Origin: Aphanomyces cochlioides
Taxonomy: Eukaryota; Oomycota; Saprolegniomycetes; Saprolegniales; Verrucalvaceae
DNA length: 64,000 nucleotides
Assembly (NCBI GenBank): GCA_019828595.1
Contig: JAHQRK010000016.1
Coordinates: forward strand, 248,001 to 312,000
Direction: 5' to 3'
Made by a program: the position numbers and the translations under genes. Position 1 is the first letter of the stretch, and every line of letters starts with the position of its first letter. The notes under the pieces are model-generated. The model saw nothing but the letters and a program-made list of their open reading frames with translations, was not told where the DNA came from and did not search any database. Positions 5,763 to 47,515 of the stretch are shown here, piece by piece.

Positions 5763-7800
5763 ATGTCATTTTCAAAAGTCGACATGGCAGGAGCAGCCAC
5801 AGCCTGGCTGGCGATCATTAAGACGGGAGACATATTTGGCTCCATCTCAGCCTTTCAAGATGACTATAATGAGGAATATGTCAAGCTCGCGCGTCTCGTC
5901 AAGCCAGTCTTCCGTACTCCGTGCGACGAATGGTTTACAGTGCGGGCTGAGGAAAACCATTATGTCCTAAAGCTATGGGTTGATCTCAACGGCACACTGC
6001 GGCTGGCCATAGTATTTGAGCGTTTGCCATATTTGCGTGGTGTTATTGTTATTGAGGTTGTTGTTTCAGACAATCTCTCCATGCTTGAATACCTGCACGA
6101 GACGTTGGAACTCCATTCGTTTTGCGACAGACTCATTGACATTGCAGCTCGTTATGGTCAGTTGAAAATAATTGAGTTTCTTCACAAAATTAACCACCAT
6201 GGATGTTCCAAGCAAGCAATTGATGAAGCCGCAACACACGGCCACCTGCATATTGTCGAGTGGCTCTTTGACAACCGGGACGATGGATTTACTCTCCAAG
6301 CATGGTATGGAGCCAGCAGAAACGGCCACATTGAAATCTTGGATTGTCTTCAATTACATCAAGAGATGGAATATACATTAATTTACGGTGAACGATCCAA
6401 GTTCTCTGCATCTGAATGGGCAGGTATGACAATACTTGAGTGGTTTCGATTGAATCGCCGTGATTACGAGGCGACAAATGATTCTCTCGTTGAAGCAGTC
6501 GTCTTGGGGAAATTAGACGAGATAATACCTGCTCTGTCAAACCCAGACCTCATCCAACTTGTAATTGATACAGCTATTTCAAATGGAAAAGTTGACTTTG
6601 GTGAACATTTTGGAGTAGAATTGTTTGATAAGCGCAGTCTCAAAGGTTTACAACTAGCTGCACAAAGAGGCCATTTGCAGGTGGATCAGCAAGCCAGAAG
6701 GACTTTTAGAGATCGAAATATTACTTTTGGAAGATTACTTTTGGAAGCATTGGAGGCATCTCAGTGGATGTGAGCGATTGGCTGTTGACGCATTTACCCC
6801 AAGATTGCTTAGAACGTTTTTGCTGCCAATTAAAGCCCATTCCGTTTTCAAAATTTGGTCCGTCGTCACCCATGTTTCGGAAAGTTGTGCTTGAGACTCT
6901 TCGAGTAAAGTCAGCAGTGGTTGCAACCCGCCTGGGAGATTTTCAAACTTTTAGACAGCATAGCATCGAATGTTATTCTCCAGAGGTCACCAAACAAGCG
7001 ACTTTAGGGGGGGAATCTGCGCTTGGTCAAATATTTACAAGGTTTTGCGATGCCAATTCATTCCAACCTTGTATTCTATGCATCATTAACAGGCGACTTA
7101 ATTTGGTCAAACTTGCCGACGACGAATGGAATTACGGAGGATTTAGGATATTTGGGGAGAATGATCAACTCATTTTTCACACTGATGTCTTAATCTACTT
7201 GTCAGAGCTCAACAGACTTTATCCCGATTTTGTTCTGTCGACAGTAGTTGAAGAAGGGAAACTTGAAGTCACCCAAGACTTAATTCGACAGCGAATATTT
7301 GGAGGGTCGATAACCGTCTTTGGGCTTCGATCGTCTCTCGTGGCCACCTGAAATTAGCTCAATATGATATCAGCCATGGTTTTAGCGAAATCAATCCTAC
7401 ACATTGTCCATCAACAGCTGCATCATTACCAATTGTGCGCTTTGTCATCACCGAGTCTCCAACGATCGATGCATTCGTTTTTCTCAATATTGCTGCCACC
7501 ATTGGTTTCCTACCCGCTCTCGATTATATCGTGGAAGCAATGACACCAAATCCAATTTCACGAAGTGTGCTTGCTACAGCTGCACGATTTGGACATGTGG
7601 AAGCATTAAGATATTTGCGCACCGTCTACTTGCAAAAATGTGCAGACAGAGAAGTACTGAACGAAGGACATGCAAGTGGCTATTCCAACCTTTCTGATCT
7701 TTCCAGTCTGACTTCTCACGTGCATTACATGCATAGCTGACTGGATGGGCCCCAAAGCTCGAGCGTATACATCGCAAAATTGGTCTTGACGACAGTACTC
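5763..7800 (+). pseudogene. broken large ankyrin-family gene, C-terminus missing
   Basis: A copy of the gene at 37282, readable from its start (MSFSKVDMAG or the inner MAG at 5784) to WMGPKARAY near 7760. Three frames are needed. The first lesion lies near 6680-6700, the second at about 6770 (the codon series for SQWHVSDWLL lacks one base), and the third near 7300 (one extra G). It retains the N-terminal domain (VFRTPCDEWFTV) and the ankyrin-like block (CSKQAIDEAATHGHLHIVEW, then DGFTLQAWYGASRNGHI). It lacks the two C-terminal GLEBS-like motifs. Its degraded 3' end abuts the 3' end of the minus-strand pseudogene at 7889, giving a tail-to-tail arrangement. Confidence 0.8.
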
Positions 7801-10461
7801 CCTGACAATAGCGCGACGTAAACTCGGTGGCTTTGTGTTTGGAATGAATGCATTCTGCCAGATATGCGCCATTGTTTTATGGATGTTCTCACTGATTCAA
7901 AGAAATTCGTTGCTCGACGTCGTCCATTGTCGTATTGTAGGCATCACCATTGGTATGGGTAATCGTAGCTCGAATTGTGTAATCTTCCCATCGTATTTCT
8001 TCAGCCGATTGGCCCTCATACGACTTCATGGAATCGATAGCTTGCAAGACATTTTGTCGAGGCTGAAATGGATCATGATTTGGATATGTCTCTTTGTAAG
8101 TTGGAATTTCTTTGGCTGTATTGGCATTTGTTGTCGAATAGTTTGTCCAGCGTAGTTCTTCCACCGAAACGTTCGAGTACCAGACCATGGCTGATATTGA
8201 AATAATAAACTCCTCTTCAATTCCCAGTTGCTGAGTGGCATTACTTCCACGATTCGCTGCGATGACTTGACTTTTTTCGACAGCCTTGGCATTACCATAA
8301 AAGCGAAGCCTTGCCAAATAGGCTCGAACTTTTGGTCCAATCCATTCACTTGTCTCAGTGGATTTTGGCGATAAACTAAGTTCGTTGACCAGATACTTCA
8401 CGACATCTAGATGATCATTTCGTGCCGCTCCTTCAAGGGCTTCCTCTGTGCAACCTTCATGACGATTTCCATTAAACCATTTGACAATGTCCAAGTGACC
8501 ATTCGAGGCGGCATCATCCATGGCATTCGTTGTGCAACCTTGTGGTTGAGATTCATGTAAATGTTTCACAATTTCCAAATGACCCTGACCAGCTGCAATG
8601 TCCATTGCGCGTGGAGTATAAGCATTTGGATATCGCTCCAAAAGGAGACGAAGAGAGGGGAGAAATCCATAAGAGGCAGCGTCAACGACTAGAGAATCTG
8701 CGTGTGGGGGTGGTGACGCGTCGAGCAGGAAGGTATCGACGTTGTGACAGTTGGGGAATAAATCACATCTGGCCGAATGAGATCATTGGTTACAAGAAAT
8801 TGTCCAAATTGTAGATTGCCATGCGCACAAATAGCTAGCCAAACATGCGGGTCGCACTGGAAATGACCTGTCCAATCGGTATTGAGTCGATAGAGGAGAT
8901 CGAATTGTTCATCTCTTGCAACTCTTGAGAAGAGGAAAGCGTTATCCATCTGTCCCGCGTTTAATAAATATAAAATGACTTGATGTGGAGAATGGATATA
9001 TCGCGGTGCGCTGAAAAAAAAGGAGACGAGAGTTCCCAATTATCATCAACAAACTTGACCACGTTGAGATGTCCTGTCCAAGTTGCAGCCAGGAGTGAGG
9101 CCGAGCGTATTGACCATTCATGAAATTTTTTTATGACACGTACATGACCACCAAAGATTGCTTGACTGACAATATCGGTAGAAATGGATTCTTTATGTGG
9201 TTTGAGAGCGGATAAATTACCCACTCTGGCCGCGACAAGTGGAGATTTTAAAGGAAGATCTTCCAGCACAACTCTGAAATATTGGTGACAAGCGACCATA
9301 TTTGGAAAAGGGAATCAGCCTAAACAGAGTGCAAAATCTTTCGAGACAAGATTGAGGCAAATGAGTCAAAAGCCAATCACTCACATGCCACTGAGCCGCC
9401 TTCAAAGCTTCTAAAAGTACCATGTCACACTCAGAATATCCTTCTGCCTTGCTTGTCCACCATTGAACAATATCCAGACGTCCATTTCGCCCCGCTAGAG
9501 GCACAGCTTTCCGACAAACTTTGATCATTTCTTCTGGTTGAAAATGTTCAACTCGTCGAGCTAAATCAAGATGGCCATACACGATTGCTGTCCTGAACAA
9601 AAAGCAGATCATTTCCGAGTTGAGTGATTTCACATCTATTGCGTCCAAATTGATGGTAATAACAGATTCTATAAGAGCTCCGTTGCTATTCTTGTAATCT
9701 TGGGGTCGATTCTCTTGAAACCACTGCAAAATCGATGGGGCAATTTCGTTGGAAACAAACTGAAACTCTTTGAATAATCTCCATCCCAAGGGGCATTCCA
9801 TGTGCTGATTCGCATGAAGACAATCCAAAATAGCAATATGGCCATTCTTGATAGCACCATTCCACGCATTGATTGTAAAGCTATCTTCTCGATTGTCAAA
9901 TAACCATTCAATAACATTCAAGTGGCCATTGGTAGCAGCTTCGTCAATCGCTTGCTTGGAACACCCAAGGTGATTAATATTGTGAAGGAACTGTAGACTA
10001 TGGAGCTGACCGTAACAAGCAGCAATATCAAGCAGTCTTTCGTGTACTAAATGAAGATTAATCGTCGAATGGAGGTACTCCAACACATCGAAGCGACCAG
10101 ATATCACGGCGTCAATCACAACAATATCACGCTGTCGTGCCGCATGACTACTGTGTATGGGTTGCGTTGCAGTCCTACTGCCTTTCTGTCACGTCCCTTG
10201 CATTGAAGTCAATCCTCAATCTCCCTCCAGTTCAATGCCCATCATCATGCCTTTTTGTATACATATCCATTCAGTGTAGGCATCATTCATAAGGCCATGG
10301 CCCTTAATCACTTTTCATCATTCCATCACTTTGCCGCATCACCAACACGAGAGACGCGACATATTGTTTAAACAATCGAAGTAGCGAATCCTACCTCGGC
10401 ACCCATCAAGAAAAGCCTTTTGCACAACCGGTGCACTCGTACATCATGAACAGACTCGAAA

Positions 10462-11358
10462 GTGAAATTACTTTCACCCGCACAAGACCCAAACGGTACG
10501 AAAGCCCGCAAGACCGTGCCCATTTTTCAAGGAAGAGGATGGGAAGCATGGCTGAAGTTTGGCCTTGTGGTGTTTGATTACATTCGCTGGATGAAGTATG
10601 AATTCGACAACGAATATGCAATGGAATCCCTCCATGAAGACATTCAATTACTGTTACAAGGCGAAAAATACAACTTGGCGACAACGCCGCAGGCTGGAGA
10701 GCAAATATCCTACCGAGAGTTGCTCATGAGAGGTATGGGATACCTCACAGAACTGTATTGTCCACTGGGCACCCGAGCCCTCCTCATCGACAAGATTCGG
10801 CGCGCAACAAAGAAGGATGGTCAATCCGTGGCCAATTTTGCCGCCAGTTTGTCCCAGTTGTTTCGAATGACATGTTCCTACAAACTGGTGAGTCGGAGCC
10901 GTTGTCGGTCACTGACCAGATTCAATACTTCTCCAACGCCATGCCTATGGAGTATCAAATTGAGTTCCGCAAGAAGTTTGGAGCGATACCGTTCTTGAGC
11001 CTCGAAGGAGTTGAGGCAAGCAAGCTATATCGCAATCGAAAATGATTTCGCCTTCATAAAAAAATCGGCGACTTCAAAAAAAAACCATACAAAATCCGAG
11101 TCGTTTGGTGGAAAAGAAAAATTTTCAAAAAAATCAACTGCTGATTCAAATCAACCAAACCAAAGCAAGAGGAGCAGTCAAGCCGCAAAGGACAAGAAGA
11201 CAAGTGGCGCGCAATGTGAATTTTGTGCAAGCAATGGATGAAAGGCGGATAATCACTCGTCTGCAGACTGTGGCCGCCATGACAACCCGAAAAATGCATC
11301 AAATGAGAGCAAACGGCCAGCGAAAACAAAGAAGAAAGAGGACGATGTTAATGCAGCC
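10462..11358 (+). pseudogene. gag: gag of gypsy fragment, frameshifted
   Basis: Capsid-like Gag pieces in three frames. Frame one opens MKLLSPAQDPNGTKARKTVP and contains FQGRGWEAWLKFGLVVFDYI. Another frame has LSVTDQIQYFSNAMPMEYQI. A Lys/Ser-rich stretch follows (from about 11011) with a zinc-knuckle remnant CEFC ... HSSADC, broken by a stop at about 11241. Gag would form the retroelement particle and bind its RNA. The breaks make it non-functional. Confidence 0.65.
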
Positions 11359-11937
11359 ATGCAAGACACGGCTCGAGAAGACTCGTCGGATGGTGAACAA
11401 TTGTCGGACGATGGAGAGTGCAGCGATGTCTACGCTATGGCAGTTGACGCACTTGTTACGTCCAATGGCAACGAATTGGTGACTCTCCCACAACGAATTT
11501 CCATGGAAGTGCGATTCAAACTCCATGCTGGTGGCGATTCAAAGCACATTGTTGGACTGCTAGATACAGGCTCTACCTCCTCTACGATTATCTCTACCTT
11601 GGTGGTCTCGACGGATGTAGATACAAGCCGCCCAACACGATATGCGAAAATTGACGGCTCAATTGGAACGTCCTTAGGTCACATCGTCGTTCCATTCCGT
11701 CTGTCAGACTTTTCGCCGACGCGCATTGTCAGTCAAAAGTTCAAAGTTGTCCCTTCTTTGGTCTATCCGGTGGTACTTGGTCTTGATTTTATGATGGCAC
11801 AAGGTATGGTACTTGATTTCGCCAACAAGACAATTCATTGGGATGGCCTTACTATGCGGATGAAGAGAGAGGCTGCTGCTGTTGCCTGTGACACAGGTAT
11901 CAAAGATGCTGACTATTCGATTCCATCATTAGAATAA
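11359..11937 (+). pseudogene. retropepsin-like aspartic protease region of gypsy fragment
   Basis: An open stretch of 192 codons. The catalytic motif LLDTGSTSS is near residue 66, followed by the flap region and VVLGLDFMMAQGMVLDFA, the typical ILG-like second motif of retroviral-type proteases. It cleaves Gag-Pol in an active element. It lies between the gag remnants and RT, in the canonical gypsy order, and ends in a stop codon before RT. Confidence 0.75.
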
Positions 11938-11949
11938 CAAAGACAGCTA

Positions 11950-12422
11950 TTGGCATTGCTTGTCGAATTCCAACAAGTCTTTGATGGCCGTATCGGGAAT
12001 ATGGAATTGGATCCTTTCGAAATTCCGCTGAAGCCAGGATCAAAGCCATACGCAGCTCGACCATATCCAATTCCCGAGAAGTACTTGGCAGCAACAAAGA
12101 AGGAGATACGTCGACTCGTGGATGTGGGAGTTTTGGCACCCGTTGGCAAGTCGCCGTGGGCATCGCCGACCTTCATTGTCCCCAAAAAAGATGGCACTGT
12201 CGGAGTAGTCTCCGATTTCCGTCAATTGAACCGTTTGATTGTCCGTCAGCCTTACCCGCTACCTAAAATCCCTGACATATTGCGGTCACTGCGTAAACCT
12301 GTCTTCAAGTCGTCTATTGACCTCATAATGGGGTATTACGCTCGCGTGCTGGCCGAGAAGAATCGCGATTGTACGGCAATTGTGCTGCCATTTGGCAAAT
12401 ACGTCTACCTTCGATTGCCCAG
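11950..12422 (+). pseudogene. N-terminal reverse transcriptase region of gypsy fragment
   Basis: Carries RT fingers and palm start: PIPEKYLAATKKEIRRLVDV, SPWASPTFIVPKKDGT, VVSDFRQLNRLIVRQPYPLP. This order is diagnostic of Ty3/gypsy RT. The YxDD catalytic box is absent because the homology ends near 12422. The ORF continues to 12483 only by reading antisense through ankyrin sequence. Confidence 0.8.
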
Positions 12423-13410
12423 ACGCGACACACACAGGTGGGGAAAAAGCCCAAATAAAATGGTCAGCCTAGAAAGACTGTAGCTTTCAAAGCAGGGCGA
12501 GAGGACTTCTTGGCTTTCTTCCGCCCACACTGTAAACCATTCGTCGCACGGGGTTCGAAAGACTGGCTTGGCAAGGCGAAAAAACGGGATGAATTCTTCG
12601 ATATAGCCGTCTTGGAAGGATACAATCGTCGTAAAAACGTCTTCCGACTGGACAATCGCATGCCACGCTTTATAGATTTCGTTATTCATGCCATCTTGCT
12701 CCTTAATCTTTGCAACCTTGGGTCGCCCACTCTGCATGCCAAGTCTTGTCATTCCGCAATTTCACAAAAAATCCGAAAAATACATCAATTTTGGAGATTT
12801 ACACCTCGAAATTGAGATTTTCGACCTTTTACAAGTGCAATGTATCGCTAAATATACATAGTTTGCGAAATATTTTGACGGATATAGACAGGGATCAGGA
12901 AACACGAAATTTCGTGAAGCGATTTGTGAGGTATAATTTAACTTGATATATCTATTGCGAGTTTATATCTCGAGATATCTGTGTTTCACGAAACTCATCA
13001 TCCGTACATCCGTTTAAATAATCAAACATCATGGCTTGTGGCTTATATCCATCGATTTTCCCAAATAAACGAGGCAAACTCAATCGAATCAACGGGAAGT
13101 GAAATCCTCCGATTAAAATATGGTGACAAGACGCGCTATCAATATGAACGAACCATCCAGCGCTTTGCAGCATGGCTCTCTACAGAGCGACCGTCTGCAG
13201 TCGCTGGTGGTCAAATTGCTTTACCTCTTGATGCTGGTTTGTGCATCAAGTTTCTTGATGTAGAATGCCGCAAAACACCCAATTCCACAGACGGAGAACG
13301 TCCAGTGTTTAAGTCTTACTCATCCGTCAATGCTTACAAGGGCGCGATTAAGTATTTGCACCGAGAAACGGGCGTAGACGTACCAGAAAAGCTCAATCGA
13401 CTACTGGCAG

Positions 13411-28133: not shown

Positions 28134-28729
28134 TAAAAGTTAATCCTAGCCAACGAGGGCAATCGCCCGACCCTGTGAAAGTAAAGGCTGGTGGCATTTT
28201 CATGTACTGCAAGCGATTTGTCCTCGTAAGCTTTCATTAACGAGATAAAATCAAGAATTGACGAGATAGCCCATTAAAGAGATATCTTGGTGAAATACGA
28301 TCAAAGAAGCCCTTTGGAATGGCCTCGGTAGGTACCAAGTTAGCTGCTCAAGTGTCCTTGGGGCGATTTGCACCAAGTCGTCAAACAAAAAGCTCAGCCA
28401 ACTCTGTTTCGATCCAAAGGGTCTAAATCAAAGCCCATGATTTCGCACAAACGGGCCTTTCATCGATGATTTGCTTGGAAAAACAATTATATTAAATATT
28501 ATGGAGAAATCGTTTGATTTCACACGGACCGCATCGGGCATGTGTTCAACCAATGCCGATAGGCTCGACGTCTAGTAGCGTTCAAGGCACGGCTTCAGGA
28601 CTTGATAAAACTGGAATGAGCAGGTAAAATTTCGTGCTCCCACTTGGTCCAGACTTTGGATGACATATTTGTAGACAGTTGTTCCACCATCGAGCTTGAT
28701 ATTTGACGAAGATATGTGCAAGCGATCTT
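28134..28729. other. no gene recognised
   Basis: No ORF with recognisable content. It is the 3' flank of the ankyrin relic that follows. Confidence 0.5.
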
Positions 28730-29087
28730 CACTTAAAATATCTGCTCGAAAATTGTTGATTGCAACGAGTAATCTTCCTGTCGCACTTCTTCACTCGACT
28801 TGTTTTCAAAAACTTTTATCGCAGAGATCGATTGAATATGTCGAAGGGCTACTTTTTGGGCGATCAATTGCAAATGTTGAGTATTTTTATCGTCCGACAA
28901 CCACATGGTCTCTCTGTATGACGCTGAAATCCTTGGATGTGTCTGCCTTGGAGTAAGTTTCCCATCGTAATTCTTCCGTGGAAAGAGTTGCATACCAGTC
29001 CATACCAGAGATTGAAACCATGTACTCTGCTTCATCTACAACATCTGTTGGTACAAATGGTGCAATTTCCGACCCCATGGAGTATGC
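28730..29087 (-). pseudogene. C-terminal relic of large ankyrin family, cut by gypsy element 1
   Basis: In two frames, the minus strand reads YMVSISGMDWYATLS ... TEELRWETYS, then SISAIKVFENKS ... SEEVRQEDYS. These are the two C-terminal GLEBS-like motifs of the family. Everything upstream is replaced by the gypsy element at about 29088. The end of the integrase ORF runs out of frame into this relic, which shows the junction directly. The rest of this ankyrin copy was not found on the far side of the retroelement. Confidence 0.7.
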
Positions 29088-31035
29088 TCGGCTCCTCTTC
29101 GACTGGGATATCAAACTCGTTCTGCCTCATCATACTCATCCGGGCGAGGTGTAACCGATCTCGTTCGAACTCATACACCAAGACTGACGGTGGCAACAGA
29201 ATTGAAGCAATCCATATCCAAGGGCCATTGTTCTCCAGCTGCACTTCGTACTCTTTGACATTGTTGACATATCGTATGTCTCGGATGCCAAATAGCTGTT
29301 GATCATCTGGGTCTAGTTCAAATGAATCGGGGGGAAAATAGAGCCCTTCGTCGAAGTCCACTGGTGGTTGATTCTCGAGGATGTCAGCCGGTCTGAGTTG
29401 GAACAGCCGTTGTAGCTTCAATCGTGAGTCATGAACCTCAGCGTGGAACCGATGGTTCTTCAGCGCCAATCTTCCCCGGATTTCTAACACACTGGCATAG
29501 TCATGCTTCTTTTCCAGCACTCGGAATGGTCCGTGCCACAGGTGAGCCAGCTTCTTCTTTACGCCGGGCTTAACTTGGTCCATGTAGACCCACACCAGAT
29601 CACCCACTTTGATCCGTTCGTCTACTGCTTCAGGTAATCGGGCGTTGTGTGCTTCTGCTCGCTGGGTCACAGCTTGCTGGAGCAGCTCGTGAGCGATAGC
29701 TCGGCAAAACAAGTGCTGTTGGTGTAGTTGTGATCGCCACCGATGAGCTTTGTGGTCGCCATTTCTGGTGGATGGGAGGCTAGCAGTAATCGTCGTAAAG
29801 GGATCCCATCCATGCATAAGGAAGAATGGCGTATCTCCACGCGTAGCCGAGGGGGTAGTGTTGATCGCAAACGTCAGTCTCACTGCGTACTCATCCCAAT
29901 CTCGCTGTTGAGGGTCGGCCACATATAACTTCACCGATCTGACTAAGGTCTGGATCGCTCTCTCAGCTGTCCCATTTGCTTGGGGACGGTAGGCAAAGGT
30001 GGGCATAGATCCTTGGCCGATCATTTTCATGAAGTGAGTGAACACCTCGCTCATGAACGAGGGTTCACGATCATGGCGGACTTCTTTACACGCACCGAAC
30101 CGGATGAACACCGTTTCCTCAAATGCTTTTGCTAGAGTGTGGGCAGCTCGATCGGGGGTTGGCTTGCACAGGACATATCCCGTGAAGTTGTCGACAAACA
30201 CCACCAACTGTGCATTTCCTTCGAAAGATCGGGGAAGGTCAGTGGCAATATCGAAATTGATCAGCTCCATAGGTCCTTGTGGTACGAGATTGCCAGGTGA
30301 TCGAGCTTGGATAGTCGGTGGTGGTCCTCCAGAGGTGCATATTTCGCAGGCAGCGATGTAGTTTTTCGCATCCGTGTACATACCAGCCCAATAAAAGTGC
30401 TTCCTCAGCCGTTCGTAGGTAGCATGAAACTTGAAGTGGCCTCCTTCGACGCTGTCATGGCAGTGGTGGAGTACGGTTGGTATCAATTCAGTGGGTATGA
30501 CTAAGCTCCAAACCAGAACAGGCAGGTTGCTCCTTCGGTTGGTCCAGTTCAGCCGGAAAAGGGCTCCTTCTTCGCCAACCTCGTACATTCCAGCTTCTTT
30601 GCTGGCTGTCGAGCACTCTTCTGACGATAATTCTGCCAAGTCTCCGCGTAGAAAACGCTTGATAACCCACCATTTTCGCTCTCGGTCTTGTGCTAAGCTC
30701 ACTCGGAGGAGTCGAATTTGCATGTTCAGCCCCACAGTCTTCGAGATTGGCCTCGGATGAGTGAACGCGAAGACATTTCTCGCCTCACTTTGCAGATCGT
30801 TGGGCTCTAGTTGCGGCTGAAGGAGTTCTACCAGCAGATTTTTCGCTCGGATATCATCCAGATCATTCGGGGTAAGCTCAGAAATCTCCTTGCGGGCCAT
30901 TAGACCCATGGAGGCTAGGTGGTCTGCACTGCCATTCCATTGCAGGATGTGGTGATACTCTACTCGAGACAGTTGTCGCTCCAAGGTCCGTAAGTCATTG
31001 AGTTGGTTCTGTAGATGCTGTTGCTTGCACTGCAT
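29088..31035 (-). pseudogene. pol: integrase region of gypsy element 1 (ORF about 650 aa)
   Basis: The long open frame starts with the end of the second RNase H (WNGSADHLASMG). The integrase zinc-binding region has HHCHDSVEGGHFKFHATYER and CEICTSGG. The catalytic triad is D (INFDIATDLP), D (VRHDREPSF) and E (RPQANGTAERAIQ). The chromodomain-like tail includes IRDIRYVNNVKEYEVQLENN followed by GPWIWIASILLPPSVLVYEF. The frame then crosses into antisense ankyrin sequence at about 29088, so the last 18 codons of the ORF are not retroelement. Confidence 0.85.
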
Positions 31036-32106
31036 CCATTCAAGAGCTTGTGAATCACCAGCTTGGAGTCGCCAAATACATGCAAAGTTTGGATGCCTTG
31101 TTTGATGGCAGCTCGGAGCACGGCCTTAGCAACTTCGTATTCAGCCACGTTGACAGTCGCATCTTGGCAACAGCCGGCACCAGCCCACACAATACTCCAT
31201 TCAGGCAACTTCCAAATGGCAGCGCCCCAACTTCCGAATCGCTCTTTCACCTTGATGGCACCGTCGAATGTAGCAATATAGCCTTGGTCGTTCTCGGTGA
31301 AGGTTGGCATCTTTACTTGGCGAGGCTGCAAGCCAACCTTGGACCGGTTGGGCTCATACAAAGCCAATTTCTCGCAGGTCGTCTCGTCCGGCGGATGGAG
31401 GGTTTCAGTCAACATAATCGGTAGGTTCCATCGGCCATCCAATTCTTCCACAGGGACCACTTTGATTGTCCATGGAGCTAACATGGCAGCCCAGTGTAGG
31501 TTCTCAGCTTTGGCTTGCTTGTCTTTTAGCAACCATTTCATAAGACCAAACCGAGTGTACACCACAATGGTCCGCCCTCGGACTTCGAAGAAGCAAGTCT
31601 TCAGCACACCAGGCCAGGATCTCCTTCGCCCAACCTTCATACCGGGTTTCGCCACCCTTTAGTACTCGTCCGCAAAACCAAATTGGGTGCAGCACGCCTT
31701 CGTCCTCCTGGCAAACAGTCGCAGAGATAGCCCAATTTGTAGTATATATGAGCACGTGGACTTCTTTGCCAGGAGCTGCGTGTTTGAGAGTTGGTAGGTT
31801 GGCGAAAGCCGACTTCAGTTCGTCAAAGGCCAATTTGGCCGTGTCTGAGACCACGCCGGCTTCTATATCCTCACGGGATATTTCATAGAGACTGCTGGCT
31901 TTGGTGGCGTAGTTCTCGACGAGCCTCGAGTAAAAGTTCAGGGAACCCAGAAAAGATTGGACGGCTTGTAGTGAGGTGGGAAACTCCAGATTGATCAGCT
32001 TCTCTAAACCTTTGGGTCTCGCAGAGAGGCCTCGTCTTGAAATCCAGTGGCCAAGAAACTCAATCTCACATTTGCCAAACTTGCTCTTGGACGCGCTAAT
32101 GCTCAC
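30960..32106 (-). pseudogene. pol: RT connection and two RNase H domains of gypsy element 1
   Basis: 32106-31504 carries LGHWISRRGLSARPKGLEKL, FLGSLNFYSRLVENYA and the gypsy RNase H start TTNWAISATVCQEDEGVLHP. 31655-30960 carries a second RNase H with ATFDGAIKVKERFGSWGAAI, a conserved Glu (DATVNVAEYEVA) and Asp (VFGDSKLVIHKLL). The last catalytic Asp lies across another frame break near 31020 (WNGSADHLASMG in the integrase frame). Confidence 0.8.
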
Positions 32107-37281: not shown

Positions 37282-39771
37282 ATGACGGCCTGGAGGACGA
37301 TTCTCGAGTCGCAGGACATCTTTGGCACAATCACTTGCTTCCAAGACGGGTACAGCCAAAGCATCTTGTCGCTGAATCGACTTGTCAAGCCCGTCTTTCA
37401 CGTGCCGTGCGACGAATGGTTCACCGTTTGGGCTGAAGAGAACCATCATATCTTGAAGCCGTGGCTGGATCAATGCGATACGACCAAACTATGCACTTTG
37501 TTTGAGCGTCTGCCACGCTTGCGCGAGATTGTCGTCATTGAAGCGGTTGTGTCTGGGCGGCTCGCTTTGCTTGAATATCTTCATTCGGTCCTGAATATCC
37601 ATACAGTCTTCGAACGCCTGCTTGATATTGCCGCCCGCTTTGGCCAGTTAGGTATCCTGAAATTTCTTCAAAGTGTTGAACATGCCGGGTGTTCCAAGCA
37701 AGCCATTGACGAAGCTGCAACACATGGCTACCTAGAAGTCGTTCAATGGCTATTTGAAAACCGAGAAGATGGATTTACACTTCAAGCGTGGTATGGAGCA
37801 AGCAAGAATGGTCATATTGCAATTCTAGACTGTCTTCAGACACATCAAGAAATGGAATACACAGCAGATATACACAACGAGCATCGACAAAAGTTCTCTC
37901 TATCAGCATCTGAGTGGGCTGGAATTGACATCTTGAAATGGTTTAGAGCAAATCGTCCCAAGGACTTCGAAGTCGCAGATGGCCCTCTTGTTGAAGCCGT
38001 TGCAACCGGCAACATGGATGCAATCTTAAATCTTATTCAAGGAAACGCACTCCTCATCAGGCGATACTTTGAAACCGCAATTGTCTATGGTCATTTGGAT
38101 GATACCAAGAGAACAGAGTTTCATGAACGCGGAATTATGACGAATATATGCCTCAGAGTAATGCCTCTAGTTGCCCAAAATGGACATTTGGACGTTATAA
38201 AATGGTGGGTACACCAGCCCGTCGAACCATTAGAGACTGAGAAGCTTCTTATGACAGCATTAAACGCATCGCAGTGGCACGTGAGCGATTGGCTGTTGAA
38301 AAATTTACCCCAATTTCGCATTGAGCAGTTTTGTACCTTACTGAGGCCCATCCCATTTTCAAAATTTGGTCGAGCGTCACCTATGTTTCAAAAGATCGTG
38401 CTTCAAGACATGCCAATAAAATCTGTTGTGGTTGCTGCCCGCTTGGGTAATTTGGAAGCTCTAAGATTGCACCCCATCGAGTCACTGACCGCAAGGGTAG
38501 CCGAACAAGCTTCGTTTGGAGGTCACTTACGTCTTCTTAAATATTTGCACGAAAGTGGATTGTATTGCGACTCATTGCAGCCCGCGACTTACTCTGGTCG
38601 CCTCAATGTGGTTAAATTTCTTTTCAAAAATGGTTTATCCATGAGAAATCTATATTTCTTACGTCAATATGACCTCCTTGTACGTCATACAGAAATTATG
38701 ATCTACCTGGCGAAGTCTTTGAAGGCAAATGATGATTTACAATTCTCACAAGCGGTAACTTCGGGCCAACTTGATCTCTTTCATCACATGTTGTCAAATC
38801 TGGATAATTTTTGGTGGTGCGGACCTAAAGTGTGGCAATCCATATGTGCTCGAGGGGATCTGCAATTTGTGCAATACGTTATGAACCACAATGTTCGTTT
38901 ACTGTATTCACCCTATTGCCTAGAAGTTTTTGTGTCCATTCCCATTTTACGGTTCTTGGTTAAGCAATCACTGCCGCACACTGACAACCGATCTTACCTT
39001 CTGAAACAAGCAGCTTCAACAGGTTTCCTTCCAGCTGTCCAGTTCCTCTTGGATAAATTCCAAGACTCGTATACACCGCGTGCAATGTACACTGCTGCGG
39101 GACGAGGGCATTTGGAAGTAGTGAAATATTTGCATGCTAAAAAGCCACAAGGATATACGACCGATGCGATTGTTGAAGCATCTACGAACGGCCATCTAGA
39201 CGTTGTCAAATGGCTCTATGAGAATCGCCACGAAGGTTCCGTAGATGAGGCATTAGTCGAAGCAGCCCAAGAGGATCATTTGCATGTAGTCCAGTGGCTC
39301 GTCGAACGACACAGTTCCGAGTGGCATTTGGAGAATCTTCTTTGGATGGGTCCAAAAGTTCGAGCCTATTTTGCCAAGTATCATTTTTTCGGTAGTCTTG
39401 AAGCTGTTTCAAAGAGCCAAGAAAGCCCTCTTGGATCGGGAAGAGCATCATTTACAGCAACTGAAGTGATACCAGAAGCAGAGACTATTGTTTCTATCTC
39501 TGGTATGAAGTGGTATGCAAACGTTTCGTCGGAAGAATTGCGGTGGCAGACATACTCCAAAAAAGACACGCCATGGGTTTTTAGAAGTGCTCATGATTTC
39601 CCGCCATACAGATCCTCAATAATAGTGTTGCCACAACAATCTCGTCGATATATTCAAGCAATCTCTGCGATGGAGACGTGCGAAGGCAAGTCAACAGAAG
39701 AAATACGATGGGAAGACTACTCATTTCGAGCTGCACTATCCCCAAAAGAATCTAGTGTAAAAGATGGCTGA
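37282..39771 (+). CDS. large ankyrin-family protein with two C-terminal GLEBS-like motifs, 829 aa
   Basis: The only intact member of the family here. The ATG at 37282 (MTAWRTILESQDIFGTITCF) is chosen because homology with the other copies begins here; the in-frame ATG at 37240 adds 14 unrelated residues. Residues 1-100 are a conserved N-terminal domain (VPCDEWFTVWAEENHHILKP at 41-60). Residues about 100-700 hold diverged ankyrin repeats (CSKQAIDEAATHGYLEVVQW; AMYTAAGRGHLEVVKYLH; IVEASTNGHLDVVKWLYENR). Residues 739-759 (ISGMKWY ... SEELRWQTYS) and 794-814 (ISAMETCEGKSTEEIRWEDY) are two copies of a motif resembling the Gle2/Rae1-binding core of Nup98. No signal peptide. Likely role: a scaffold that binds a WD40 partner, by inference only. 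Confidence 0.88.
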   Translation: MTAWRTILESQDIFGTITCFQDGYSQSILSLNRLVKPVFHVPCDEWFTVWAEENHHILKPWLDQCDTTKLCTLFERLPRLREIVVIEAVVSGRLALLEYLHSVLNIHTVFERLLDIAARFGQLGILKFLQSVEHAGCSKQAIDEAATHGYLEVVQWLFENREDGFTLQAWYGASKNGHIAILDCLQTHQEMEYTADIHNEHRQKFSLSASEWAGIDILKWFRANRPKDFEVADGPLVEAVATGNMDAILNLIQGNALLIRRYFETAIVYGHLDDTKRTEFHERGIMTNICLRVMPLVAQNGHLDVIKWWVHQPVEPLETEKLLMTALNASQWHVSDWLLKNLPQFRIEQFCTLLRPIPFSKFGRASPMFQKIVLQDMPIKSVVVAARLGNLEALRLHPIESLTARVAEQASFGGHLRLLKYLHESGLYCDSLQPATYSGRLNVVKFLFKNGLSMRNLYFLRQYDLLVRHTEIMIYLAKSLKANDDLQFSQAVTSGQLDLFHHMLSNLDNFWWCGPKVWQSICARGDLQFVQYVMNHNVRLLYSPYCLEVFVSIPILRFLVKQSLPHTDNRSYLLKQAASTGFLPAVQFLLDKFQDSYTPRAMYTAAGRGHLEVVKYLHAKKPQGYTTDAIVEASTNGHLDVVKWLYENRHEGSVDEALVEAAQEDHLHVVQWLVERHSSEWHLENLLWMGPKVRAYFAKYHFFGSLEAVSKSQESPLGSGRASFTATEVIPEAETIVSISGMKWYANVSSEELRWQTYSKKDTPWVFRSAHDFPPYRSSIIVLPQQSRRYIQAISAMETCEGKSTEEIRWEDYSFRAALSPKESSVKDG

Positions 39772-40070: not shown

Positions 40071-40376
40071 CTAATCAGCTTGGAGAAATGTGGCTCGTGT
40101 TGAGTAATCTTGCCATCTTATTTCTTCTGCAGAATGGTCTTCGAAGACTGTCGTGGCAGAAATGGATTGAATGAAAGCTGGTTGTGACATGATGACACAT
40201 TTACTAGAAATCTCACGTACGAAGGCGCTTTTCTTGCAGTATGCATCATCCCTGGGTATTCTACTTGATGATGCAAACTCTTCTGACATGTACCAGTGCG
40301 TGCCACTCAACGGAGGCGAGATCTTCAGCCTCCTCCGGACAATTAGTTGGTGTGAACAAGGAATGTGAAGATCCAA
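40071..40376 (-). pseudogene. C-terminal relic of large ankyrin family
   Basis: The minus strand reads IQSISATTVFEDHSAEEIRW and QDYS in one frame, equivalent to the second GLEBS-like motif. EAEDLASVEWHALVHV in another frame is a degenerate equivalent of the region around the first motif. The upstream part of the gene is missing. It may be the detached tail of the minus-strand pseudogene at 42902-44370, separated by the plus-strand copy in between. Confidence 0.65.
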
Positions 40377-40487
40377 GTGCGCAATTTCGGCTCCTTGAAT
40401 TTAAGACAGCCAAAAAATTGAAGTTTGCCACATGTTTGCCACATACTGTTGATCAATCGTCTCATTTAAGGGTTCCAGTAGAGAGAG

Positions 40488-42082
40488 GTGAATGAGGGAT
40501 TTGCGGGGAGTGAAATCTTTCTCTTGGAAGCTTTAGAGGCATCTCAAGGGCATATCAGCGACTGGCTGCTAACTCATGCACCTCAAGATTGCCTGGAACA
40601 ATTTTGTTATTTGTTGAAACCAATTCCGTTCTCAAAATATGGACGTTTATCACCTACATTTCAAAATATTATCTTGGATAAATTGCCACTCCAATCACCA
40701 TTGGTTGCAGCTCGCTTGGGCAATCTCGAAGCTCTCAAGACGTATCCTACGGAAGCACTTACTTCGGACCTAATAGATCAAGCGGCTTTTGGAGGTCATT
40801 TGATTGTGTTGAAATATTTGTATGACTTGGGTGAATATTCAACATCGATTTTACCATCGACTTTGTCTGGACGAGTGACTGTGGCCAAGTTTGTCAACGA
40901 GAATTATCATTATCCACAAGATACTTTAATCATGCGCACAGAGAGTCTTATTTACCACACAGACACGATTATGTACATGACTGACCAATGTAAATTTGGT
41001 GAGGCTTGTGCATTTGGTTATTGTGAGTTTGGTAAGGTTTGTGTTGGAGCTTATTCTTTTCTTCTGGATCAAGCTGCAGAGGAAGGTCACCTCGATCTAT
41101 TTCATCGACTAATTTCGCGTCGACTCCAACCCTGGAAATGTGATATTGGATTTTGGTCTTATATATGTGCAAGAGGTGACTTCCAGTATATCCAGTCCCT
41201 TGTAAATCATGACTTTCACCCATTTAGCAATGTCAGCGTTCGTGATGTCTGCTCGTCGATGACTATTTTACGCTTCATTCTAAACTCTGGTCTACCAGTT
41301 GATTCATCGAGCTTGTTGCAAGAATCTTGTACTCTGGGCTACATCCCAGCTCTCCGTTTCCTCTTGTAATGTTATCCTGATGTAAATACAAACGATGCAA
41401 TGAAATATGCTGCACGCTCTGGAGAGATTGCAGCGTTGAAATATTTACATGCATTTCATTCTCGAAGATGTGAGGCTTGGAAAATACCAACTCATCTGAC
41501 TGCAGCTGGAAGAATACCGTGAATGTCCCAAAAGACTCCATATGTGAGCAATTTATCGAAGCTGCAAGAAATGATCAATTACAAGTTGCACAATACATGC
41601 TTGATCTGCCAAATTGTCACCAAAATATCCTTGACATGATATCTCCAAAAGAATTCGACAAGATGGGTCCAAGCGTACGCTTTTATTGCTAAATTTCAAT
41701 TTTTTGGCAGTTCTGAAGCAATTGGAAAGAGTCAAAAATGCGCACTTGGATCATCACATTCCATATACACACCAACTAAATGTGCGAAACAAACTGACAC
41801 TCTCGTCTCTATAAGTGCCATGTCCTGGTTCTCCAATACAGTACGTACATCGACAGAAGAATTGAGGTAGGAAACGTATTTTCAAGCAGACTCCCCAGCA
41901 GATATTCATGTTGCAAGACAAGTGCCTGTGTACGTGGCATCTGAATCTTCGATCAAGCCGCAAAATCCACCTGATATCTATAAATCCATTTCTGCCATGA
42001 AAATCTTCGAAAACTATGCTGTAGAAGAAATACGATGGCAAGATTACGCAATACGAGCCGCATTTCTCCAAGCTCAGACTTA
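40488..42082 (+). pseudogene. broken large ankyrin-family gene, N-terminal third missing
   Basis: Homology to the intact gene starts at EALEASQGHISDWLLTHAPQ (residue about 330 of the family) and continues for 293 codons to a stop at 41369. It then resumes in the same or shifted frames: YPDVNTNDAMKYAARSGEIA, QFIEAARNDQLQVAQYMLDL, FQFFGSSEAIGKSQKCALGS, and both C-terminal motifs (SISAMSWF ... STEELR with a stop in place of Trp; SISAMKIFENYAVEEIRWQD). The stop at 42082 coincides with the family's normal C-terminus. There are multiple lesions. Confidence 0.8.
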
Positions 42083-42901
42083 ATACAACATATCGTCTAA
42101 ATACGGGCGAATAGTTGGCAGCCGACATGGGCTTTGGTTTCGAACAGATATTAAAAATGAGAGCTCGATGGTTCAATGGAAAGTCCCTCGTCTGTTCAGC
42201 AAAGGACTGTTTGTACATCATTGTTCGAGTTCCGGCTCTCAGAATGCACAGGGTTGTGCTTACTTGGGAACGCAAAGCCGCTAAGGTTTCATGACGCGTT
42301 CAGAGTACAAAATTTTGGCTAGTTAAGATGATTTTGTTTTAGGGGATGGTTTTCTCAAGAAGAGAGAGGTGGGAGCTACCTTGACAGACAACTTCACAAT
42401 GAGATACTTGCAGCAACCATGAGTTATCTTCTGGCACACTTGCGTTACTAAGGTCCAGGAATCTCGGATGTTTGAATACACACCGCTACAGAGGACAATA
42501 ACACTGAATGTTGTTTTCTGCAATTATTCGATTGATTTCAATCCTTGGCAAAAAGGCAGCATATGCAAACCTGCAACCGAGGTACCCGTCTCTAGCAGCT
42601 CCAGGAAATTCATATTGCGTGATTCCGATGTTGAAATCCTCCAAAATGAATTTTATGAAAGAGAAGATCTTCGTAGAGGTGGAAAATATCAAGACGTGGG
42701 ACGCATTCGCGGCGGTTGATCAATCAAAACATATAAAATGGGCAAGACTATATCACTGTACAATATAACTTCAGCGTCATGAGGACTTTGAATTAAAGAA
42801 ATATGGAATGCCATAAAAAGTTGGAGTTCATTTCAATAATATGGCACTCAAATGACAAGCAAAACGATAAAGCAGCTATATACGTGGGCTTTGGTTTGTC
42901 T
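42083..42901. other. no gene recognised
   Basis: Short ORFs only. It sits between two convergent ankyrin pseudogenes and may contain unrecognisably decayed family sequence. Confidence 0.45.
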
Positions 42902-44370
42902 TCAACTTGTTGATTGTGAAACTATGCGAAACTTGGCTCTCGAGAGAAGAATTTCGGCATGAATTTTTTTCATGTTTATCATGTAAAGCACCACTGCTGT
43001 GTGAAGAATCAATGGATCCACATTTACTGATTTATACGACATTGCGAAGTTCCAATTGTCATCGACCCATTTGACGACACTCACACGATCACTCAATGCT
43101 GCAAAAAATATGGCTTTGGCAATAACAGGAGCTTCGACTTCATGTAAATATTTGATCAAGCGTAGATGACTACCCAAAGTTGCTTGCTTGGCAACATCTG
43201 TAGTATACGATGCGACGGGGTGCTGTCTGAGGGCTTCAAAATTCTCCAAGCGCGCCGCAACCACTGCTGATTTTGATGGTAGTTCTTCCATAATAACTTT
43301 TTGAAACACAGGAGACAAACGACTAAATTTTGCGAACGGGATGGACCTAGACATGGAGCAAAAGCGCTCGAGACAATCTTGAGGTAAATTCATCAATAGC
43401 CAATCGCTCACATGCCACTGAGATGCCTCCAAAGCTCATTCCAACGCCCAACAAGTCCTTGCGGTTTACGCGTCCACCACATGACAATCTCCAAATGGCC
43501 TTTTCGCGCTGCTATCGGCATAACTTTTGGGTAAAATTGGTCAGAGGATGCCGCGTTGAGACGCACCCCGCAGTTAATCTTTCCACAAGACAGCGTAGCA
43601 TAAAAAACGAGCTGGAAAAGCTTTGGGCTTTGTTGGGCGAGTTTTATAACATCAGTATTGCCGACGATGAAAGCCTAAAAGAATGGACCGTTGGCAGCTT
43701 CGTACACGTCAAGGCGATTAATTCGGAACCAGTCAAGCACATGAGTTCCCGCCCATTCGGATGCAGATTGGGAACACTTACACCGTTGACCGTGAAGTTC
43801 TGTACACTCCATGTCTTGATGTGCTTGCAGGCAATCCAACACTGCAATACGACCATTCCTGCTTGCTCCATACCATGCTTGCAGGGTAAACCCATCATCA
43901 TGATTGTCAAACAACCCCTGGACAACATCTAATTGACTATATGTAGCAGCTTCACGTGGTTAATCCCGTGTCGATATTGAAGGATATGCAATTGACCGTA
44001 ACGAGCCGCAATGTCGAGAAGTCTGTCGTACACAGAATGGAGATCAATTGTCGTGTGCAAATCTTTCAGCAAAAAGAGGTTTCCAGACACGACGGCGTCG
44101 ACAATTATAACGCCGCGCAAGTGTGGCAAGGGCTCGTAAATTATGGGCAGCCTTGATGTCCTGTAGCGAGCAAGACATGGTTTGAGAATCTCATGGTTCT
44201 CCTCTGCGAACACTATAAACCATTCATCACACGGCGAGCGAAGGACAGGCTTGACAAGACGACTGAGTGTGGTTGTTTCCGCGTCGTATCCATCTTGGAA
44301 GGCTGTGATTGAGCTAAAAATATCTCGACATCTAACGATTGCCAACCAAGCTGCTCCAAAATAGATGGAA
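42902..44370 (-). pseudogene. broken large ankyrin-family gene, C-terminal part missing
   Basis: The minus strand starts around GAAWLAIVRCRDIFSSITAF and VLRSPCDEWFIVFAEENHEI (start codon lost or at 44345). It continues through DRLLDIAARYGQLHILQYRH, NHDDGFTLQAWYGASRNGRI in a second frame, PIAARKGHLEIVMWWTRKPQ, and ASQWHVSDWLLMNLPQDCLE in a third, to about residue 510 of the family near 42960. At least three frame breaks. The two C-terminal motifs are absent. Confidence 0.8.
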
Positions 44371-45601
44371 TAAGCTCATACTCCGGAGTCTTTGACACGA
44401 TGAACATTTCAATAAAAGGCCCAAATGCAAGTTCATATCAAGACTAGTCTGGTCGAAAATATTGAGCGAATCTCCACAAGACCGAGGGGCGACCAATCTC
44501 CAGTCTTACGAAATTATTCATCGATGATCCCTTCTTCACCGGGTTGGTGATCACTGGAAGTGGTTTATCGTGCTTACATCTGTGGGTTGACATGCCAGAG
44601 CTTGAATGCATCCAAGGGCATGGCAACCTCGGCGAACTTTGACGGCATATCCTTCGTATACGGCTCATTTTCATGCAAATGGGATAACATGTCATGTTTA
44701 GAAAATGGGAGTGCAAGTGTTGCCGTGTGTGCCAACTCTCGAAACCTTGTTTGAGTTCACGTTAACGGGATATTGTTGTTTCCTTCAAGCATGGTTTCTT
44801 GATGGGCTCTATCGCAATGCAATTCGAGCGACCTCAACACGCCTCGACCAGCATCGGTCGGACCTTGTCTGTTAAGCCCAGAGCTTGTCGTATTCACAAT
44901 CCAATTCCTGGTGAAAAGCCCCAGAGAGTGATTTGATACGTAGGTTCCCATCAACATTGTACCGACTTCCAGTGCGACCATTGGAGCTTGGCAACTTCAG
45001 CTTGCCCATGGGGTCCAGTATACAGCTTCACACTTCGTCTTCTCCCACTTTTCAGGAGTCGTGACTCTGTCATACACTTCTCTTCCAACTTTCCTCACAC
45101 TCGAACCAAGACAACATCGCAATAGTTCCATACACACCAAAGGCACAAGAACCCCGTTACTTCTTCATTTGGTACCCCGAAAGTCGTCGTAAAAGCGTCA
45201 AGATCTTACAGTCGAACGACACACAACCTTGCGGTTTCCATCACACACGGGCAATTGTGCAGGTACGTCATTGTCGGTGGGTCGGTGTTTATCGCACGAA
45301 AAACTGTGGTTTTCCACAATGCCCTATTGAACTATTAATGATACGAGGTTTTTGAAAATGCATATTAATAAATAAATCAAGATAAATTCTTTATATTTAT
45401 ATATTGTAAAATATTACATATACACATTTATTAAAAATTAGAGTAAAATTCAGAGATGAGAATGCATGATCCAACCAGAAGTTGGGGATTCGACCGTGCG
45501 ACCAAGTTGTCGAATCGCCGAGCTTTCAACCAGACGACAGTCGATATCGATGCCGATCTTCAAGCGAAAGTCACTTTTCAATTCGCCTCGCCTTGACGAC
45601 A
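44371..45601. other. intergenic, upstream of the calpain gene
   Basis: A minus-strand stretch at about 44600-44750 reads LALPFSKHDMLSHLHENEPY and PSKFAEVAMPLDAFKLWHVN before a stop. It looks coding-like but has no recognised family. The last 250 bp before the calpain gene are AT-rich (45340-45450) and may hold its promoter. Confidence 0.35.
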
Positions 45602-47515
45602 ATGCCCAAGAACCTCCGCTTCGCCAAATACGCCAAGAAATTGGCGTCCAAGAAGACGGTGACCAAGCCGTCGTTGTTGTCGACTGCGAGTTTGGCCGAA
45701 GCGATTGCCAACTGCAAGGCTGAAGTCGCCGCCATTGTTGAAGAATGCCATGCCAACAACCGTGTCTTCCGCGATATTGAATTCGACGTCGGTCTCGATG
45801 AATTCGACTGCTTGAGCTCGCTCATTGAGGTCTGGGATGACACCTCGAGCAGCCCCGGCGGCGCTCTCCGTGTCCGTGATATTTTCAAGGATCCAATTTT
45901 CTGCGATGATGGTTTCGAAGCCTCGGATATCCAACAAGGAACGACGGGCAACTGCTGGTTCCTTGCAGCGATCGCATCAGTCTGCTGTGTTCCTGACATT
46001 ATTGAAAACGTCTGCGTCGCCCGCGACGAAAAAGTCGGCGTTTATGGCTTTATCTTCTTCAAAGATGGCGAGTGGACGCATGTGATTGTCGATGATCAAT
46101 TGCTCGTCACGACGACCGACTTTGACCATTCGATCGCGTCAGCGTTCATCAAGGACCGCACCAAGTTTAAGGAAGTACTGCGCTCGGGATCCCAAGCACT
46201 CTTTTTTGGCAAATCGTCGTCGGAGCGTGAAACGTGGCTCCCCTTGTTGGAAAAGGCCTATTCGAAGCTCCACGGCGACTACAAGTCGGTCGAAGGCGGT
46301 ATCACCGGCGAAGGCATTGAAGATCTCACGGGCGGTGTCACCACGTCCATCAATGTCGTCGATATTTTGGACTATGACCGATTCTGGAAGGAAGAATTGT
46401 CGCGAACCAACAAAGACACGCTCTTCTCGGCGTCGATCTTCCGCAAGTACTCGACGATGGAAGCCATGTCGTCCAATGGATTGGTCCAAACGCATGCCTA
46501 CTCGATCTTGAAGGCAGTCGAAGTGAACGATGTTCGCTTCTTGCTCATCCGCAACCCATGGGGCCAACATGAATGGAATGGCCGCTGGTCGGACGGCTCC
46601 AAGGAATGGACGCCAGAATGGATGGCCGCTTTGGACCACAAATTTGGCGACGACGGCGCGTTCTGGATGCAATACGAAGACTTTATCGAAGAGTTTACGC
46701 AAATTGACCGCACGCGATTGTTCAATGCCGACTGGTTTGTCAGCCAAGAGTGGATGGAATTCCACTCCGACTGGCCTGCGTTGTGGAACGAAGGCTTGTT
46801 CCAATTCACATTGACGCAACCAGGTCCTGCCACGGTTGTCTTGGCCAAGGCCGACGAACGCTACTTCCAAGGCCTTCAGGGACCATTCCACTTTGGTCTC
46901 CGCATGAAAATCTACCGCGTCGAGTCGGAAACCAAGCGCACGTACGTTGGCCAATTCATTCAACAAGCCTTTGGCCGCAGCATCAGCTTGGAATTCAAGC
47001 ACCTCGATGCTGGGGACTACGACGTTGACGTCATGATTGTCCGCACGCCAAATGGAGTCAACAGCGCTGAAGTCGTGTTGGGTCAAGTGGGTGCCACTCG
47101 TCCTGACAAGTTGCTTCGTATCTGCGATCAATTCAACGAAAGCCGCATGAAAGCCGTCAACTTGGACACGTCGTACAATGTCTTGAACATTGCTCGCGAG
47201 GCCCAACTCACGGCGTACGAATCTGCGTTGGAAGAAGCCGCCAAGCAAAAGCAACTCGGCTCCAACGAGCCCGCGGTCGAAAACCCTGAAGACGAACCTG
47301 AACCAACAACCGATGACACTCCAGGCGAAGGTAAAGAAGGCGAAAATGCCGACGAGGGCGACGAGGCCAATGAAGAAGGGGAAGAAGATGAAGAATATAA
47401 TCCAGAACAAGATGACGCCGACCAAATCCAAGGCGATTCTTTGAGCGGCAAAGTCGTCATTGGCGTCCGTGTCTACTCAAAGGACAGCGAGGCCGTCGTC
47501 ACTGCCGTCGTCTAA
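45602..47515 (+). CDS. calpain-family cysteine protease, 637 aa
   Basis: A long intact ORF with more GC-rich, host-like codon use than its surroundings. The ATG at 45602 (MPKNLRFAKYAKKLASKK) is preferred; 45482 would add 40 low-complexity residues. The papain-like calpain catalytic core has Cys118 in GTTGNCWFLAA, His298 in QTHAYSIL and Asn318 in IRNPWGQHEWNG, so all three catalytic residues are present. After the core comes a beta-rich region (WNEGLFQFTLTQPGPATVVL) like the C2-like domain of calpains. A Glu/Asp-rich tail follows (EGDEANEEGEEDEEYNPEQD). No EF-hand or membrane segment is seen, so calcium control would be through the core only, by family analogy. Probably cytosolic. The 430-codon ORF on the opposite strand is a shadow. 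Confidence 0.92.
   Translation: MPKNLRFAKYAKKLASKKTVTKPSLLSTASLAEAIANCKAEVAAIVEECHANNRVFRDIEFDVGLDEFDCLSSLIEVWDDTSSSPGGALRVRDIFKDPIFCDDGFEASDIQQGTTGNCWFLAAIASVCCVPDIIENVCVARDEKVGVYGFIFFKDGEWTHVIVDDQLLVTTTDFDHSIASAFIKDRTKFKEVLRSGSQALFFGKSSSERETWLPLLEKAYSKLHGDYKSVEGGITGEGIEDLTGGVTTSINVVDILDYDRFWKEELSRTNKDTLFSASIFRKYSTMEAMSSNGLVQTHAYSILKAVEVNDVRFLLIRNPWGQHEWNGRWSDGSKEWTPEWMAALDHKFGDDGAFWMQYEDFIEEFTQIDRTRLFNADWFVSQEWMEFHSDWPALWNEGLFQFTLTQPGPATVVLAKADERYFQGLQGPFHFGLRMKIYRVESETKRTYVGQFIQQAFGRSISLEFKHLDAGDYDVDVMIVRTPNGVNSAEVVLGQVGATRPDKLLRICDQFNESRMKAVNLDTSYNVLNIAREAQLTAYESALEEAAKQKQLGSNEPAVENPEDEPEPTTDDTPGEGKEGENADEGDEANEEGEEDEEYNPEQDDADQIQGDSLSGKVVIGVRVYSKDSEAVVTAVV

Follow-up and report, generated by a model that had tools for sequence, protein, structure and literature searches.

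Two Nup98-type GLEBS motifs in the tail of an ankyrin-repeat protein of Aphanomyces cochlioides

The window, by which we mean the whole stretch of 64,000 nucleotides analysed here (C8:248001-312000, in a genome of 76.2 Mb and 94 contigs), contains a cluster of ankyrin-repeat genes. One of these, copy A, encodes a protein whose C-terminal tail carries two motifs of the Nup98 GLEBS type (Pfam PF21240, Nup98_GLEBS). Copies were delimited by mapping three proteins of Aphanomyces euteiches (P0001, P0002 and P0003) onto the window. Copy A is the only intact tailed copy in the window, and all the others seen are broken. The features of the cluster are as follows.

37282..39771, plus strand: copy A, intact gene, with ATG at 37282 and stop at 39771, 829 residues; ankyrin solenoid and disordered tail
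37459..39381, plus strand: ankyrin-repeat region of copy A, approximately residues 60-700; Pfam Ank_4/Ank_2, modelled helices
39388..39768, plus strand: C-terminal tail of copy A, residues 703-829; predicted disordered, pLDDT approximately 21-40
39487..39564, plus strand: GLEBS motif 1 of copy A, Glu pair at 39532-39537
39655..39732, plus strand: GLEBS motif 2 of copy A, Glu pair at 39697-39702
7892..12737, minus strand: copy B, counterpart of P0002, split by 2.3 kb (10132-12434) and with three frame changes; open frame in the tail
8126..8203, minus strand: motif 1 of copy B
7967..8044, minus strand: motif 2 of copy B
28736..29126, minus strand: copy C, counterpart of P0003, tail only, with a frame change
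40509..42071, plus strand: copy D, broken, 4 stops; degenerate motif 1 at 41811-41867, motif 2 at 41988-42047
40074..40398, minus strand: tail remnant F, motif 2 at 40104-40169 (15.8 bits, Met lost)
5799..7641 (end approximate), plus strand: copy E, ankyrin part of a broken family member, without PF21240 match
42878-44405, minus strand: ankyrin part, located by the mapping of the A. euteiches proteins

The reading frame of copy A is open slightly further upstream of the ATG. Among the matches listed, the proteins closest to copy A come from A. euteiches, and P0001 is its counterpart, with 93.5% identity over 830 residues. Several Ank families and PF21240 are the Pfam families found in copy A, and nothing else. 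The structure was predicted using AlphaFold2 from a four-row alignment (copy A, P0001, P0002 and P0003), which gave a model of low confidence with a mean pLDDT of 59.3. Helix pairs that look like an ankyrin solenoid are predicted in this weak model up to approximately residue 700; within the ankyrin region the 10-residue pLDDT means range from 38 to 89, and from 61 to 89 over approximately residues 491-680. Two short helices are predicted in the tail, one at residues 750-757, over the first Glu pair, and one at 810-817, just after the second. The model fits a flexible tail bearing linear docking motifs, and is uninformative on Rae1.

A preliminary description of this DNA had identified two GLEBS-like motifs in the tail, at residues 739-759 and 794-814, with the pattern I-S-x-M-x(6)-S-x-E-E-[LI]-R-W-x-x-Y-S. 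Both occur at these residues and fit the pattern: the core of motif 1, I739-S759, reads ISGMKWYANVSSEELRWQTYS (39496-39558), and that of motif 2, I794-S814, reads ISAMETCEGKSTEEIRWEDYS (39661-39723). For comparison we used an FG-rich ORF of 1753 residues on contig C23, which has a PF21240 match and which we take to be the organism's own Nup98. The curated Pfam cut-off for PF21240 is 27 bits. The copy A protein scores 39.4 bits (E 6.3e-10), while P0001, P0002 and P0003 score 43.9 bits (E 2.5e-11), 47.6 bits (1.7e-12) and 43.8 bits (2.7e-11), respectively. Motif 2 alone exceeds the cut-off in copies A, B and C (28.9, 30.8 and 29.4 bits), and the piece from the own Nup98 ORF scores 31.2 bits; motif 1 alone is below the cut-off in all three copies (19.5, 21.1 and 17.0 bits). 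The piece at 40074-40376, from remnant F, scores 15.8 bits. For motif 2 of copy A, 12 of 20 positions agree with the GLEBS arm of human Nup98 (PDB 3mmy chain B); the corresponding counts against this human arm are 13 of 20 for the own Nup98 and 10 of 20 for motif 1 of copy A. A search of the PDB with the single sequence found Nup98 chains at E 0.22-0.35 only. All four aligned proteins (copy A, P0001, P0002 and P0003) retain the Met, Ser, Glu pair, Arg, Trp and Tyr in both motifs. The profile comparison, which had been set beforehand as the check, thus gave a significant PF21240 match, with both Glu pairs kept in copy A and the three A. euteiches proteins, and the tail motifs are genuine Nup98-type GLEBS sequences, beyond chance.

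The resemblance is to the C-terminal arm of GLEBS. The Nup98/Nup116 GLEBS (PF21240; human residues 157-213, PDB 3mmy) has the same arm, consisting of I-x-x-M, Ser, tandem Glu, Arg, Trp or Leu, and Tyr. PF21240 matches begin at profile position 18 in copies A and B, P0001 and P0002, at position 13 in P0003 and at position 10 in copy C, whereas in the own Nup98 they begin at position 7-8; the match of motif 2 covers positions 18-39 in copies A and B, compared to 8-39 in the own Nup98. By these profile matches the N-terminal arm is unrecognisable in copies A and B, as the preliminary description had also found for the N-terminal hairpin half. The tail further differs from the Nup98/Nup116 GLEBS in having two tandem copies, and in belonging to a protein without FG repeats: in the Nup98 nucleoporin the FG-repeat domain surrounds GLEBS, whereas copy A has ankyrin families alongside PF21240 instead. 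We also considered recent capture of a Nup98 exon, and found no support for it. Motif 2 of copy A and the Nup98 block agree at 49 of 78 bases and, Met and Trp excluded, use the same codon in 7 of 12 shared residues; for motif 1 the counts are 36 of 78 bases and 3 of 10 residues.

The conservation of the motifs was compared with that of the remainder of the tail, using residues 739-759 and 794-814 as motif bounds, counting the rest of the tail from residue 690, and treating gap columns as not invariant. In the alignment of copy A with P0002 and P0003, invariant columns number 24 of 42 in the motifs and 14 of 98 elsewhere in the tail (Fisher 6e-7; 8e-6 when the 13 gap columns are dropped). Ankyrin residues 358-689 of the same alignment have 118 of 332 invariant columns (Fisher 0.01 against the motifs). 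Alternative bounds of 737-759 and 792-816 give 28/48 against 10/92 (Fisher 9e-9); these bounds were drawn after seeing the invariant columns, which biases the count towards them. No such contrast is seen between copy A and its counterpart P0001: 38 of 42 motif residues are identical, as are 89 of 98 at the other tail positions (Fisher 1.0), and before residue 690, 649 of 689 are identical. Between copies A and B, dN/dS is approximately 0.15 over the 50 motif codons and 0.54 over the 72 linker codons, both values being rough, as synonymous change is near saturation. When the broken copies D and F are compared with one another, dN (0.18) exceeds dS (0.06) over 26 codons, in line with relaxed constraint, although this is very little data. 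The motifs are kept between paralogues while the rest of the tail diverges.

The motifs had been described as recurring at 7889, 28730 and 41690-42082, with the second also at 40071. They are present in these copies, with some corrections. Motif 2 of copy B, at 7889, reads IDSM. In copy C, at 28.7-29.1 kb, the two motifs lie in different frames, and motif 2 has lost the Met and Trp, though these are kept in P0003. In copy D, at 41.7-42.1 kb, the spacer of motif 1 is lengthened and its Arg is followed by a stop, and motif 2 is present. In remnant F, at 40071, only motif 2 fits, and its Met is lost; a WYMSEEF stretch lies upstream and may be a residue of motif 1, and the remnant may belong with the ankyrin body at 42878-44405 on the same strand. 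The expanded family of the same description consists, where tails are concerned, mostly of broken copies. Two more ankyrin ORFs near the cluster, at 415-1251 (plus strand) and 3591-4910 (minus strand), have no PF21240 match.

Copy C adjoins retroelement ORFs (29032-32106, minus strand) with integrase, reverse transcriptase, RNase H or aspartyl protease domains, and a second stretch of retroelement ORFs lies in or beside the ankyrin cluster at 56965-62653 (plus strand). The window also contains a transposase ORF with DDE_1 and Tc5 DNA-binding domains (54662-55735, plus strand) and an ORF for a calpain-family cysteine protease (45482-47515, plus strand, Pfam E 1.5e-69). Outside the window, a fragment at C78:1328383-1328739 (locus L009) matches the ankyrin part of P0003 at 93 of 104 residues. 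It has stops around it and no GLEBS-like string within the 3.4-kb locus, and is apparently a displaced piece of copy C.

Relatives were sought by scoring the 8000 candidates that shared most words with the query, a procedure by which others may be missed. Among the 63 proteins in the matches listed, only three have PF21240, all of them from A. euteiches (P0001, P0002 and P0003), and these have ankyrin repeats and both motifs. The other 60 share the ankyrin scaffold, as do ankyrin-repeat proteins of oomycetes and other eukaryotes, but have no PF21240 match. Searches with the tails of copy A (1 of 105 candidates) and P0002 (1 of 253) found A. euteiches only, within a reach limited to relatives that share exact words and fit the length range. 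P0001 and P0003 have adjacent locus tags (Ae201684P_009513 and Ae201684P_009512), which suggests that the cluster is conserved. The best reading is of a genus-level family of tailed ankyrin proteins, seen so far only in Aphanomyces.

We then consider which protein the tail would bind. The preliminary description proposed docking on Rae1/Gle2 or a Bub3-like protein, either the organism's own or a host's. Of these, the sequence favours the own Rae1/Gle2; Bub3 is disfavoured, and a host protein is unsupported. The genome encodes Rae1 on contig C7 and a Bub3-like protein on C11. Bub3 would link the ankyrin proteins to the spindle checkpoint, in the manner of the GLEBS of Bub1/BubR1 and BuGZ. In its favour, Bub3 and Rae1 are related and Rae1 can bind the Bub1 GLEBS (PMC9147866), and a Bub3-like gene is present. 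The region II GLEBS of Mad3/Bub1 (PF08171, Mad3_BUB1_II) resembles the tail motifs in having tandem Glu followed by [LI]-R. However, it has Ala instead of Trp after the Arg, is without I-x-x-M, and belongs to another profile. The GLEBS of the own Mad3/Bub1-like ORF reads FCFEEIRARRF and matches PF08171 (E 9.5e-4, 19.7 bits, slightly under the cut-off of 21) rather than PF21240, whereas none of seven tail pieces matches PF08171 at E <= 1. With the Glu pair as the fixed point, the two motifs in each of the four aligned proteins, eight in all, agree with the own Nup98 at 12-15 of 25-26 positions, whereas the own Mad3/Bub1 motif agrees with it at 5 of 26. The tail motifs have the Nup98 shape, I-x-x-M...EE[LIV]RW, with Trp as in the own Nup98. 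Because they agree with the own Nup98 at more positions than the own Mad3/Bub1 motif does, and have no PF08171 match at E <= 1, they point to Rae1 rather than Bub3. A Bub3-type GLEBS was accordingly set aside as first choice after the comparison with the own Mad3/Bub1-like ORF, and we consider binding to Bub3 improbable.

In the structure of Rae1 with Nup98, the glutamates E201 and E202 of Nup98 make salt bridges to Rae1 R216 and R172, and in yeast Nup116 a change of the equivalent glutamates is reported to impair association with Gle2 (PMC3783196). The C7 Rae1 has Arg at both equivalent positions (QLSERCYALDV and SLKYQTRCIAAF), while in the Bub3-like protein the first is Lys and the second Arg. 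The 2010 paper on the Rae1-Nup98 structure reportedly found the C-terminal arm of GLEBS to be both necessary and sufficient for binding Rae1; if this is right, a weak or missing N-terminal arm is no obstacle. We consider it likely that Aphanomyces has a family of ankyrin proteins in which a disordered tail grips the organism's own Rae1/Gle2 by two Nup98-type C-terminal GLEBS arms. The ankyrin protein probably docks on Rae1 or competes for it.

The ankyrin solenoid would bind a client, and each tail motif would lie across the top face of the own Rae1/Gle2 propeller, its tandem glutamates pairing with the two conserved Rae1 arginines (R172 and R216 in human). Rae1 would thus be bound in the Nup98 mode, twice per protein, with the result that the client would be tethered to Rae1, or Rae1 held away from Nup98 or off the pore. 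Since Nup98 uses the same face, a single Rae1 molecule should be able to hold either the tail or Nup98, but not both at once. In HeLa cells, Rae1 is mislocalised and poly(A) RNA trapped when GLEBS is over-expressed (PMC3783196). That the tail binds Rae1, does so bivalently, competes with Nup98 and has a cellular role is in each case our inference from sequence. A more specific proposal, which is tentative, is that the protein may be an Aphanomyces-specific, bivalent and soluble competitor of Nup98: as an ankyrin adaptor it might pull Rae1, together with its RNA, to a client, or crosslink two Rae1 molecules, and so retune mRNA export or the mitotic role of Rae1.

To our knowledge few GLEBS proteins are known, namely Nup98-type nucleoporins, Bub1/BubR1/Mad3 and BuGZ. 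The occurrence of GLEBS outside Nup98, in Bub1, BubR1/Mad3 and BuGZ, is thus already established (PMC9147866). BuGZ/ZNF207, in which GLEBS function depends on the Glu pair (PMC9147866), differs in being a zinc-finger protein that binds Bub3, and not an ankyrin protein. In the literature on GLEBS, Rae1 or Gle2 with ankyrin or oomycetes, as represented mostly by titles, no GLEBS on an ankyrin protein is described, and one of the papers that mention both GLEBS and oomycetes concerns Bub1/BubR1 (PMC5204127). Nup98-type GLEBS in tandem on ankyrin proteins that change fast would mean that new cellular proteins can take over the face of Rae1 to which Nup98 binds. The tail motif also makes it possible to test binding cheaply for one of the numerous uncharacterised ankyrin proteins of oomycetes.

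About as improbable as Bub3 is a partner outside the Rae1/Bub3 pair: the motifs could descend from GLEBS or resemble it, and yet bind something else, for example another WD40 propeller. In A. euteiches, ankyrin is an abundant domain and WD40 proteins are among the most frequent (PMC8780586), and this reading would also accommodate the divergence of motif 1 and the presence of mainly the C-terminal arm. It sits less well with the scores of motif 2, which at 28.9-30.8 bits are close to that of the own Nup98 (31.2), and with the retention of the Met, Ser, Glu pair, Arg, Trp and Tyr in all four aligned proteins.

We regard action on the plant's Rae1, by a secreted or host-directed tail, as very unlikely. 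The A. euteiches relatives come from a plant root pathogen (PMC8780586), and host Rae1/Nup98 is a known target of SARS-CoV Orf6 (PMC8790125) and of VSV M (PMC3460625). However, a hydropathy scan of the first 60 residues of copy A, P0001 and P0002 found no signal-peptide-like stretch (19-residue maxima of 0.67-0.80), which by hydropathy alone makes action on plant Rae1 less likely, and the motif carries the Trp of the own Nup98, so that the own Rae1 is explanation enough.

Binding to the own Rae1/Gle2 is the reading that we prefer. Within the genome, the tail motifs were found only in this cluster. A six-frame search of the 76.2 Mb with PF21240, taken to E 10, gave 10 matches: the own Nup98 (36.6 bits) and nine in the window, of which three pass the cut-off (30.6, 29.0 and 28.6 bits). 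A degenerate codon pattern for E-E-x-R-W-x-x-Y has eight matches in the genome, seven in the cluster and one in Nup98, and the reversed pattern has none on either strand. Neither search found GLEBS-tailed ankyrin proteins elsewhere in the genome. The motif is short and its single-sequence PDB match is at E = 0.22, but a chance or artefactual resemblance of low information is refuted at sequence level by the four proteins that exceed the curated PF21240 cut-off, by the codon-pattern count of 8 against 0 in the reversed control, and by conservation between paralogues, leaving it a negligible probability. Five further ankyrin loci of approximately 3.4 kb each (L009, L010, L013, L016 and L019) contain no GLEBS-like string in a six-frame scan; in L016 and L019 a stop is reached in the frame of the match without a motif. 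The family was earlier called large, which holds for ankyrin proteins in general (184 matched segments), but GLEBS-tailed members were found only in this cluster. We note finally a sub-threshold PF21240 match in the window at 28211-28252 on the minus strand (16.9 bits, E 0.67), which reads ISLMKAYEDKSLAV within a short open frame and may be a remnant of another tail.
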